From Flammeovirgaceae bacterium 311 (lineage in GTDB: Bacteria; Bacteroidota; Bacteroidia; Cytophagales; Cyclobacteriaceae), in contig CP004371.1 in NCBI GenBank assembly GCA_000597885.1, forward strand, positions 3,798,501 through 3,862,500: a DNA stretch of 64,000 nt, given 5' to 3'. The notes beneath the pieces are model-generated. The model saw only the letters and a list, made by a program, of their open reading frames with translations, did no database searches and was not told the origin of the DNA. Positions 53,096 to 57,137 of the stretch are shown in pieces (position 1 is the first letter of the stretch; each line of letters opens with the position of its first letter). Made by a program: the position numbers and the translations under genes.

Positions 53096-53126
53096 TTGTT
53101 TTGAAAAGCAGTGTGTAGTAGGTTTG
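53096..53126 (+). promoter_or_regulatory. Bacteroidota-type -33/-7 promoter of the methionine locus
   Basis: TTG at 53096-53098 and TAGGTTTG at 53119-53126 match the -33 and TAnnTTTG -7 elements with a 20-base spacer. Transcription should begin a few bases before the riboswitch, which starts at 53157. This is the best promoter match in the window. Confidence 0.65.
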
Positions 53127-53156: not shown

Positions 53157-53264
53157 GATTTATACAGAAGCGCAGAGAGACAGGCTCTATGAAGCGCTAG
53201 CAACCCTGCCCACCGTGGGCAAAGGTGCTAAATCCTGATCCCGAAAACAGGGAGAATATAAATC
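53157..53264 (+). promoter_or_regulatory. SAM-I type riboswitch
   Basis: The P1 stem is a perfect 8-bp pair, GATTTATA (53157-53164) with TATAAATC (53257-53264). P2 is AGCGC/GCGCT (53169-53173, 53194-53198), followed by the conserved GCTAGCAACC junction. P3 is TGCCCA/TGGGCA at about 53207-53221, then the core AAAGGTGCTAAATCCTG. P4 is TCCC/GGGA around 53239-53253 with an AAAA-type loop. These elements in this order identify the SAM riboswitch upstream of methionine genes. Its usual output is repression when SAM is plentiful. No T-run terminator follows P1; the leader ORF starts 9 bases later. Confidence 0.9.
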
Positions 53265-53273
53265 GTTACAGTT

Positions 53274-53393
53274 ATGAAAAACAACAACGCGCTTTCAGCA
53301 CCATTACATTCTCGTCTCTTTACCGTTGCAGCTATTGCCATGCGTGCATGTTGTGCTAACGGCCCCTGTTGCTGTTGTTGCTGTTATAGGTAA
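53274..53393 (+). CDS. Cysteine-rich 39-residue leader peptide between the SAM riboswitch and metY
   Basis: ATG 53274 to TAA 53393 encodes 39 residues in a continuous frame. The first part is ordinary (MKNNNALSAPLHSRLF, then TVAAIAMRA). Residues 26-27 are Cys-Cys and 32-37 are six consecutive Cys, encoded TGT-TGC-TGT-TGT-TGC-TGT, before Tyr-Arg. Eight of 39 residues are Cys. The start lies 9 bases after riboswitch P1 and 257 bases before metY, with no SD site. Position and composition fit a leader peptide whose translation tests charged tRNA-Cys. A zinc-binding small protein is the main alternative. Expression is unproven. Confidence 0.6.
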   Translation: MKNNNALSAPLHSRLFTVAAIAMRACCANGPCCCCCCYR

Positions 53394-53429
53394 CTCCCCT
53401 TTTTCTGTTGCGCTACTCCTTGGCCTGCC

Positions 53430-53498
53430 GGCACAGTATATGCTACTGTCAGCCTGCTTTTATAAAGTAGCTTTCAGATCCCATCTGTTTTAATTTTT
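53430..53498 (+). promoter_or_regulatory. Two weak hairpins between the leader ORF and metY
   Basis: The first is ACAGTA (53433-53438)/TACTGT (53444-53449) with a 5-base loop, extended by GGC/GCC across a 2-base bulge and followed by TGCTTTTAT. The second is CAGAT (53475-53479)/ATCTG (53483-53487) with a 3-base loop, followed by TTTTAATTTTT (53488-53498). Either could be a weak terminator of an attenuator; both stems are short. Confidence 0.4.
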
Positions 53499-53500
53499 AG

Positions 53501-54862
<1,362 letters not shown>

Positions 54863-54992: not shown

Positions 54993-56045
54993 ATGTTAGA
55001 AGTATTTAAACATACAGCTCCGTTTCAGCTGGAGGGAGGCCAAAGCCTGCCGGGTTTTGAGCTGGCTTATACGACTGCCGGTACACTGAACCAGGAAGGC
55101 AATAATGTGGTGTGGATCTGTCATGCCCTTACGGGTAATGCGGAGCCAGAGGAGTGGTGGCCGGGCCTGGTGGGTCAGGGAAAGCTGCTGGATCCCGAGC
55201 GCTATTTTATTGTTTGTGCCAATGTACTGGGTGGCTGCTATGGCTCTACAGGTCCGTTGAGTCTTAATCCTCAGACAGGAGAGCCCTGGTACTATACTTT
55301 TCCTGTACTTACCAACCGCGATATCGTAAAAGCTTTTCAGCTTTTGAAAACCCATATTGGTATTGATCGCATTGGTTATATGCTTGGCGGCTCCCTGGGT
55401 GGGCAACATGCGCTGGAGTGGGCTATTCTTAATCCGGATGATATTGAACACCTGGTGCTGCTGGCCACCAATGCCTGGCATTCTGCATGGGGTATTGCCT
55501 TTAATGAAAGCCAGCGAATGGCCATTGAGGCAGATGCCAGCTGGTTGCAAAACAGCCCCCGGGCCGGAGAAAGTGGGTTAAAAGTAGCCCGCACGATTGG
55601 GATGCTTTCATACAGAACCTGGCAAATCTACAATGACCGGCAGGCAGAGGACAACACAGATAAGCTGGCCAACTACCGTGCTGCTGCCTACCAGCAATAC
55701 CAGGGACAGAAGCTGGCCAACCGTTTTAATGCTTTTACCTACTACCGCCTTTCGCAGGCCATGGATTCGCACCAGGTGGGCAGGGGCCGGGAAAGTACAG
55801 AGGCCGCTTTGGCAGGCGTTGCCGCTAAAACCCTGGTACTGGGGGTTGATACGGATCTTTTATTTCCTGTGCATGAGCAGGAGTATCTGGCAAAACACAT
55901 TCCGGGAGCTGCGCTTCAGGTTATTTCTTCCCAGTACGGGCATGATGGCTTTTTGGTAGAGTCCGTAGAAATAGCAGCGGCCTTACAGCAGCACTTTCCT
56001 GAACTTAAAAAAGAAGCAGTTACACGCGAAAAAATAGATTTTTAA
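54993..56045 (+). CDS. metX: Homoserine O-acetyltransferase
   Basis: The 350-residue alpha/beta hydrolase makes O-acetylhomoserine from homoserine and acetyl-CoA. VCANVLGGCYGSTGPLSLNPQTG is split here around the GGCYGSTGP oxyanion block; the nucleophile Ser is in LGGSLGGQHALEW, the acid Asp in LGVDTDLLFPVHEQ and the His in YGHDGFLVE. The MetX-specific ISYRTWQIYNDR-like LSYRTWQIYND stretch is present. The start ATG 54993 gives the usual N-terminus. It lies between metY and hom and supplies the MetY substrate. Succinyltransferase activity cannot be fully excluded. Confidence 0.94.
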   Translation: MLEVFKHTAPFQLEGGQSLPGFELAYTTAGTLNQEGNNVVWICHALTGNAEPEEWWPGLVGQGKLLDPERYFIVCANVLGGCYGSTGPLSLNPQTGEPWYYTFPVLTNRDIVKAFQLLKTHIGIDRIGYMLGGSLGGQHALEWAILNPDDIEHLVLLATNAWHSAWGIAFNESQRMAIEADASWLQNSPRAGESGLKVARTIGMLSYRTWQIYNDRQAEDNTDKLANYRAAAYQQYQGQKLANRFNAFTYYRLSQAMDSHQVGRGRESTEAALAGVAAKTLVLGVDTDLLFPVHEQEYLAKHIPGAALQVISSQYGHDGFLVESVEIAAALQQHFPELKKEAVTREKIDF

Positions 56046-56153: not shown

Positions 56154-57137
56154 ATGGAGAGGCGTTGGAAAATAGGATTGTTTGGTTTTGGTACGGTAGG
56201 CCAGGGGTTTTACCGCATTGTGCAGGAACAAAAATTGCCCATAGAGGTACGGCGCATTTGTGTACGTAATCCAAATAAGGAGCGGTCGGGCCCGCAGGAG
56301 TTATTTACTTACAACCCACACGATATTCTGGAAGACCCTGAAATTGACCTGATCGTGGAAGCCATCAGCGAAACAGAGCCTGCTTTTGAAATTGTAAAAG
56401 AAGCCCTGCAGCGCTGGCTGCCGGTAACCTCGGCCTCTAAAAAGATGCTGGCCCTGCACCTGCCCGAGCTGCTTGCCCTGCAGCAGGAGGCCAATACCCC
56501 ATTCCGGTACGAGGCCGCAGTAGCAGGTGCTATTCCTATTTTACACCTGCTTGATGAGCCCCTGCACGAGCCAGTAGAGGAAATACGCGCCATCCTGAAC
56601 GGAACTACCAACTATATTCTTACCCAGATGCGACTGCAGCACTGGAGCTACGAGCATGCCCTGCGTGAAGCGCAGCGGCTTGGTTTTGCAGAGGCTAATC
56701 CAGCCTCTGATGTAGATGGCTGGGATGCCTGCTATAAGCTTTGCCTGCTGGCCAGACATGCCTTTGGCGCGATCCTGCAGCCCTCTGATGTAGAGGTAGA
56801 GGGGATTTCCCAGCTGCCGGCTTCAATGCTGGAAACTGCTCAGCAACAAGGGCAGCGCGTGAGGCTGGTGGCCAGGCTGAAACAGCTAAACGGAGTGCTG
56901 CAGGCAAGTGTAAAGCCTGAGGCAGTCGCTGCAGACGATCCACTTTTTGGAATAGAGCATGAACTGAATGCGGTGCAGGTAGATCTGCGCTACAGCGGCA
57001 AACAGATTTTTACCGGCAAGGGAGCGGGTGCGCTGCCAACAGGCGCAGCTGTAATGGCCGATGTACTAAAGCTGATGGAGGGCAAGCCCTATGGCTATTC
57101 CAGAGGAAAGAGGATTTTTAATAGTGTGGTAGCTTAA
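56154..57137 (+). CDS. hom: Homoserine dehydrogenase
   Basis: The 327-residue NAD(P)-dependent enzyme reduces aspartate semialdehyde to homoserine. GLFGFGTVGQGFYRIV is the Rossmann loop; AAVAGAIPILHLLDEPL and ILNGTTNYILTQM are the conserved substrate-domain blocks, and EANPASDVDGWDACYKL carries the catalytic Asp/Lys region. There is no C-terminal ACT domain, so threonine feedback through ACT is absent. It feeds metX in the same transcript. An intrinsic terminator follows. Confidence 0.95.
   Translation: MERRWKIGLFGFGTVGQGFYRIVQEQKLPIEVRRICVRNPNKERSGPQELFTYNPHDILEDPEIDLIVEAISETEPAFEIVKEALQRWLPVTSASKKMLALHLPELLALQQEANTPFRYEAAVAGAIPILHLLDEPLHEPVEEIRAILNGTTNYILTQMRLQHWSYEHALREAQRLGFAEANPASDVDGWDACYKLCLLARHAFGAILQPSDVEVEGISQLPASMLETAQQQGQRVRLVARLKQLNGVLQASVKPEAVAADDPLFGIEHELNAVQVDLRYSGKQIFTGKGAGALPTGAAVMADVLKLMEGKPYGYSRGKRIFNSVVA

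Follow-up and report, generated by a model that had tools for sequence, protein, structure and literature searches.

A SAM riboswitch and a cysteine-codon leader frame ahead of metY-metX-hom in Flammeovirgaceae bacterium 311: a probable two-signal switch for sulfur use

The locus and its leader frame

What is a short reading frame with a run of six Cys codons doing between a SAM riboswitch and the genes metY, metX and hom? The question is raised by a window of 64,000 nucleotides (i.e. the whole stretch of DNA that was analysed) from Flammeovirgaceae bacterium 311, whose genome is a single contig of 6.67 Mb. A first-pass annotation, made from the letters alone, had proposed that the frame encodes a leader peptide monitoring charged tRNA-Cys, stacked on the riboswitch. 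The features on which the following argument draws are:

53096..53126 (+): candidate Bacteroidota-type promoter, TTG at 53096-53098 plus TAGGTTTG at 53119-53126, by sequence reading
53157..53264 (+): SAM-I (S-box) riboswitch aptamer (RF00162), TATA type (see below), with an A-U rich stem P1
53257..53264 (+): P1 3' strand TATAAATC, bearing A at positions -14 to -12 relative to the leader ATG
53274..53393 (+): putative Cys leader peptide ORF of 39 codons, from the window sequence and relatives
53367..53384 (+): run of six Cys codons, proposed stall site, from the sequence and from at least three adjacent Cys (CCC) in 41/69 TATA-type leaders
53427..53461 (+): terminator-like hairpin (53427-53457) followed by TTTT, a weak candidate, from folding energy against shuffles
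53531..54862 (+): metY, O-acetylhomoserine sulfhydrylase (TIGR01326, 674.5 bits; PF01053, Cys_Met_Meta_PP, 448 bits)
54993..56045 (+): metX, homoserine O-acetyltransferase (best NCBIfam match TIGR01392 at 347.8 bits, under its cut-off of 500; PF00561)
56154..57137 (+): hom, homoserine dehydrogenase (PF00742, 185 bits; NF004976, 307.8 bits)

The frame runs from ATG to TAA and encodes 39 amino acids (MKNNNALSAPLHSRLFTVAAIAMRACCANGPCCCCCCYR), eight of which are Cys. The first-pass annotation had placed six consecutive Cys codons at the very end of this frame; the run, the length and the total of eight are correct, but Tyr-Arg stands between the run and the stop. The spacing that it gave is borne out by the sequence, with 9 nt from the last base of the riboswitch match to the ATG and 137 nt from the stop to the start of metY. 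So is the identity of the riboswitch, which matches RF00162 with 81.3 bits (gathering threshold 44.4, E 1.3e-17, model positions 1-108) and is the sole gathering-level Rfam match within the window, and that of the three genes by family scans, metX below its own cut-off. The promoter-like letters lie 31 nt upstream of the riboswitch and were judged against the consensus of Bacteroidota promoters, TTTG / TAnnTTTG.

Two riboswitch types and a recurring Cys run

A search with RF00162 in 59 genomes including the window's own, with stricter filters by which weak copies were possibly missed, found the riboswitch in 52 genomes at 120 places, every one of which was read. According to letters 5-8 of the match, which belong to stem P1, these riboswitches fall into 75 of a TATA type and 45 of a TATC type. 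The TATC type lies mostly before metH (39), with a Cys/Met PLP enzyme in five cases and hom in one (these and the other downstream-gene labels being those of BLAST clusters, with a Pfam check of the representatives). An ATG follows the match within 3-16 nt in 69/75 TATA loci versus 3/45 TATC loci, and in 57 of the 69 TATA-type leaders this distance is 7-10 nt. The P1 duplex of the TATA type is also the weaker one, with a mean energy of -3.3 versus -7.5 kcal/mol.

Riboswitch and metY might have been kept in relatives without any Cys-rich frame, an outcome that the first-pass annotation had named as fatal to its proposal. Instead, the run recurs: CCC is found in 41 of the 69 TATA-type leaders with an ATG (41/75 of all TATA loci, in 29/52 genomes), without exception in frame with the ATG, and nine further TATA-type leaders have CC. 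Two more loci with Cys runs, L079 (GTG start) and L119 (TTG, or a later ATG), were counted as having no ATG. After the TATC type the CCC run is absent (0/45), also from every short ORF starting up to 120 nt downstream. The trait is not universal, as 28/69 leaders with an ATG (34/75 of all TATA loci) have no CCC, several of them before metY, and Cys is entirely missing at some metY loci. Sorted by the gene that follows, CCC is present in 7/7 ferredoxin loci, 22/46 PLP-enzyme loci, 3/4 osmC loci, 0/4 metX loci, 0/1 metH locus and 9/13 others. Within the leaders the frequency of Cys rises from less than 10% per position to 22 to 54% over the last eight codons, and 29 of the 41 CCC leaders end in Cys. 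Their lengths range from 22 to 60 amino acids, the body is not conserved, and the run itself varies from short forms (CCMC, CCC) to mixed ones such as CCMQCCCC. The same-genus genome G002 and Cesiribacter andamanensis AMV16 have the same leader peptide as each other. A short ORF with an in-frame run of the matching codons, upstream of the genes of the pathway, is what characterises an amino-acid leader peptide; judged from the sequences, the locus and its recurrence are best read in this way, in line with the first-pass proposal.

The same association was found in a second sample from the same order (42 loci), in which 24 TATA riboswitches have an ATG in 20 and CCC in 14 cases, versus none of either for the 18 others; six of the TATA leaders have no CCC, five of these before metY. 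This sample was not random: it comprised 22 of 25 new loci (three from already-seen genomes were dropped) plus 20 taken roughly in list order, skipped some second loci of genomes already represented, and includes the near-identical sisters L412 and L413 as well as L405, which has the peptide of L150. A phylum-wide sample of 69 loci, likewise non-random (60 regions in list order plus 9 of 30 further loci), held 13 of the TATA type by the letter rule (nine with the TATA-type 3' strand too), of which eight have the ATG and two CCC, while its 20 loci from outside the class showed neither TATA nor CCC. By these counts, the trait is common in the order and of patchy occurrence within the class, with no case beyond the class in the phylum sample. 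Finally, a pattern scan of GTDB contigs gave at least 117 stretches. Among the matches listed, 23 have riboswitch letters upstream and every one of these is in frame, compared to 7 of the 94 without such letters. Most of the listed matches were judged by these letters, and an Rfam check of 18 of them confirmed 11/11 tested with letters and found that 3/7 of the in-frame letterless ones are also riboswitches. The genera among the matches listed include Pontibacter, Rufibacter, Adhaeribacter, Nafulsella, Cesiribacter, Thermoflexibacter, Mucilaginibacter, Lewinella and Taibaiella, and a MAG labelled Chitinophaga pinensis is also among them.

A proposed two-signal leader, its rivals and the route to metY

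Since the pairing of riboswitch and leader recurs in many relatives, it is probable that they act together as a switch through which sulfur use responds to two signals. The reading that we consider likely is that they act as one SAM-gated, tRNA-Cys-sensing leader in two parts, with expression requiring both low SAM and low Cys. Its first part would be the SAM-I riboswitch, with a weak, A-U-rich P1 from whose end the AUG of the short ORF is 9 nt away. Upon binding of SAM, P1 would close and take up the A-rich -12/-13 stretch that serves ribosomes of the Bacteroidota in place of a Shine-Dalgarno sequence, so that the ORF would not be started, as the geometry and the sequence suggest; at low SAM, the leader ORF would be translated. 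When charged tRNA-Cys is scarce, a ribosome would then stall on the Cys run, by analogy with the Cys-run leaders of actinobacteria, and the stalled ribosome would keep metY-metX-hom on, whereas the genes would stay off if the ribosome read through to the stop or if none were present. In known attenuators, untranslated leaders end in the off state. If this also applies here, the gating by SAM and the stalling upon lack of Cys would combine to an AND gate.

The SAM-dependent part of this proposal draws on what is known of translation initiation in the phylum. In Flavobacterium johnsoniae, according to the accessible text of PMC6847099, A at -3, -6, -12 and -13 promotes initiation while mRNA structure lowers it, and members of the phylum do without Shine-Dalgarno sequences. 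Among the 69 TATA-type leaders, A is present at -12 or -13 of the ATG in 63 (at both in 34) and at -3 in 36, and position -12 falls within the riboswitch match in 66. The 3' strand of P1 thus overlaps the A-rich -12/-13 element of the leader start, so SAM may gate translation of the leader, as a SAM-closed P1 would presumably hide its initiation element. In addition, leaders without CCC end beside the gene (from -11 to +25 nt of its start) in 11/25 cases versus 0/40 for those with CCC, where the shortest gap is 48 nt (p 1.4e-5; L021, where the contig ends, and three leaders of less than 15 aa are left out), which suggests that the ORF carries the signal of the riboswitch to the gene. The eleven (L008, L010, L043, L050, L051, L057, L058, L067, L076, L081 and L086) are placed as for translational coupling; the leader ORF of L057 is 144 codons long. 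A broader version of the proposal, about as likely as not, is that in part of the Bacteroidota the 3' strand of P1 has become the initiation element of a leader, such that the aptamer controls only the reading of this leader. The leader would then relay the signal either by ending at the gene start (coupling, responding to SAM only) or by its Cys run (an AND gate of low SAM and low Cys), over both sulfate reduction and sulfide fixation.

The strongest competitor, although unlikely, is that two independent controls stand in series, with the riboswitch acting through its own platform (e.g. on transcription) and the Cys leader working apart from it, free of any gating by SAM. The two modules can indeed part, as L368 has a Cys-run leader with no Rfam SAM riboswitch, and the distance from P1 to the ATG could be set by initiation alone. 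Independent controls do not, however, account well for an ATG that is nearly universal after the TATA type and rare after the TATC type, even where the Cys run is missing, in which case the ORF often ends beside the gene.

Readings in which the frame is something other than a codon sensor were weighed against the way its codons change. The first-pass annotation had named a random pattern of synonymous and non-synonymous substitutions as a refutation. In two gap-free close pairs, to which this comparison is confined, the non-Cys codons differ by 8 and 15 non-synonymous versus 1 and 2 synonymous changes, while a single synonymous change separates the Cys codons, none of which has lost Cys. The codon run thus stays in frame while the rest drifts. 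Between L001 and its congener L019 the six Cys of the run are likewise kept with synonymous shuffling, but of the two Cys outside the run one is replaced by Tyr in L019, which counts against the proposal. It is very improbable that the ORF is a small Cys-rich protein with a (zinc- or thiol-binding) function of its own. Clusters of Cys can bind metal, but the body is variable over 22 to 60 aa, its non-Cys codons drift, four leaders gave no NCBIfam match at E 10, and a run of adjacent Cys beside the stop is more in keeping with codon sensing than with a metal site. Hardly more credible is that stalling is due to the poly-Cys nascent chain as such and responds to metal, sulfide or redox state rather than to the charging of tRNA-Cys; long adjacent Cys runs near the stop would suit this, yet chain-sensing arrest peptides usually keep specific residues and the short and mixed runs described above do not. 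Chance, or an RNA repeat that is not translated, is already contradicted and practically negligible, for although TGY repeats are common (198 matches of TGYTGYTGYTGY in the window's genome), CCC in the 165 nt after the ATG is distributed over the three frames as 41/0/0, dinucleotide shuffles after the ATG (200 rounds, 69 loci) yielded 0.24 CCC ORFs on average and never more than 3, and the second sample repeats the association.

For the SAM-gated, Cys-sensing leader, the route from the stall to metY could be an intrinsic terminator, Rho or RNA decay. The hairpin at 53427-53457 reaches -12.9 kcal/mol in the 48-nt stretch ending at TTTT, a value that 0/12 shuffles matched. Over the 40 CCC loci with a gap of at least 40 nt, the best gap hairpin has a mean energy of -7.0 versus -3.5 kcal/mol in shuffles (12 per locus), with 17/40 below -8, compared to -2.8 versus -2.6 for 17 loci without CCC. 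Hairpin formation in the 19 loci with terminator-like hairpins is predicted to be indifferent to the position of the ribosome, with a mean difference of 0.03, as in the control, and of -0.02 at this locus. Seventeen of these 19 are negative at a threshold of 0.1, and the other two are weak (L019, with 9/40 controls as large, and L101, with 2/40). No mutually exclusive terminator and antiterminator tied to ribosome position was thus found among them, and the locus was therefore not filed as a classical trp-like attenuator. Three other candidates were tried and rejected. For classical attenuation, in which the Cys codons would pair with the gap, the pairing did not exceed that of shuffles or of a control segment (mean z -0.68 versus -0.44 for the control; below -2: 3/40 versus 4/40). 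Unmasking of the gene start by a stalled ribosome left the predicted access to the start codon unchanged (n = 35, gaps of up to 220 nt, p 0.24 and 0.30). A Rho-like skew of C over G is higher in the gap (0.25) than in TATC leaders (0.10), but it is also 0.23 in the coding part of the leader and therefore not specific to the gap; pyrimidines directly after the leader stop are only slightly raised.

Two loci, L069 and L080 (L329 and L330), carry a second Cys-run ORF in tandem before sulfite reductase, followed by a hairpin of -19 kcal/mol and a T tract. For the second leader of L069, the predicted probability of the terminator is 0.02 with the ribosome on the Cys run versus 0.99 with the ribosome at the stop; for that of L080, the predicted nascent antiterminator is 0.62 versus 0.03. 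As shuffled controls were as good as the stalled values in 12/100 and 5/100 cases, respectively, these switches are suggestive only.

Known systems and downstream genes

The riboswitch is a full match to the SAM-I (S-box) aptamer and lies before methionine genes, as is usual for this class; what differs is the proposed target, which would be the start of a leader ORF instead of a terminator or the start of the gene itself. Canestrari et al. 2020 reportedly deal, going by their title, with cysteine-responsive attenuation of mycobacterial cys operons by leaderless ORFs. The actinobacterial Cys-run leaders, insofar as the accessible text of PMC1262725 describes them, are short ORFs with Cys codons near the stop, located before sulfur genes and with no conserved terminator, for which a polypyrimidine, possibly Rho-linked gap was proposed. 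The leaders described here share the short ORF, the Cys codons near the stop, the place before cys/met genes and the lack of a conserved terminator, and are thus of the same type. They differ in belonging to another phylum and in starting 7-10 nt after an aptamer, whereas the mycobacterial ones are reportedly leaderless; the text of PMC1262725 does not mention a SAM riboswitch. Convergence is likelier than common descent as the origin of the resemblance, the bodies being too short and variable.

SAM-dependent control of an initiation site has a parallel in the SAM-II riboswitch of Sinorhizobium meliloti metA, where, according to the accessible part of PMC9373788, the aptamer likewise occupies an initiation site (AUG1) and controls translation at a distance, the real start and a terminator lying downstream of it. 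That riboswitch is of another class, however, with a Shine-Dalgarno sequence and with an AUG1 that does not serve as a start in the natural context, and the same text reports no run of amino-acid codons. The SAM-I riboswitch of Xanthomonas likewise has a second input that is tied to tRNA charging and acts on translation, but as far as the accessible text goes it is the uncharged initiator tRNA that binds the RNA, with no translated leader and with methionine instead of cysteine (PMC7270179). A translated codon run that sets downstream expression is also found in leader-peptide attenuators (trp-like ones and the mgtCBR tandem, as their accessible accounts have it), compared to which a general terminator/antiterminator pair was not found here. 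Within the phylum, the accessible texts on the transcriptomes of F. psychrophilum (PMC9723704) and B. thetaiotaomicron (PMC7366714) mention leader-peptide-like ORFs, in the former before amino-acid operons, so there are hints of attenuation. An account of a Cys leader joined to a SAM riboswitch was not found in one open-access library as far as its accessible texts go, and an earlier mention in a supplement is possible; the parts are known, and their union is apparently new.

If the proposal is true, a metabolite riboswitch acts through a translated leader in a phylum without Shine-Dalgarno sequences, which would form a natural two-input RNA gate and explain how such bacteria weigh the end product (SAM) against the sulfur supply (Cys). 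A TATA-type P1 with an ATG 7-10 nt on would then be a sequence rule by which leader-acting SAM riboswitches can be predicted. The leader pattern also marks many unannotated short genes.

The genes that follow Cys leaders are metY, osmC-metY-metX-hom, sulfite reductase operons and PAPS reductase, as well as PAPS reductase together with a second PAPS-reductase-like gene and others, and TonB-type receptors. Most of them are steps of sulfur uptake or fixation; an antiporter and some others are not obviously so. The window's genome has a second SAM riboswitch with a Cys leader (MSNIYNLHTPAPATPFTKSLMHKATAPCCCCCWCC) at G000:C1:5117563-5117663 (-), L003/L328, which precedes a 4Fe-4S ferredoxin, a sulfhydrylase-like PLP enzyme, a nitrite/sulfite reductase, a siroheme-synthase N-terminal protein and a PAPS reductase (cysH); its third riboswitch lies before metH and has no leader. 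The idea that the leader is tied to sulfate assimilation was rejected, since by a plain count six genomes with CCC leaders (G019, G039, G044, G048, G053 and G058) have no cysH match, and the presence of cysH therefore does not explain the leader.

Of 30 CCCC-stop sites in relatives, four lie in a short ATG frame and have the letters GCAACC upstream, which is what known riboswitch loci would be expected to show. L375 is a CCCC-stop site with GCAACC upstream at which Rfam finds nothing, and L386 is another short frame that may lack a riboswitch. At L368 (G040:C1:544308, -), where no Rfam SAM riboswitch was found, a 33-codon ORF ending in CCCCCC stands before a TonB-dependent receptor and may be a Cys leader working alone. 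A riboswitch with a Cys leader also precedes ATP-grasp-like and SfnG/alkanesulfonate-monooxygenase-like genes at L073/L331 and L079/L336 (only the L331 copies were scanned), and at L053/L334 a riboswitch and a CCCCCC leader lie before an antiporter-family (Na+/H+) protein, which is possibly a transporter for a sulfur compound.
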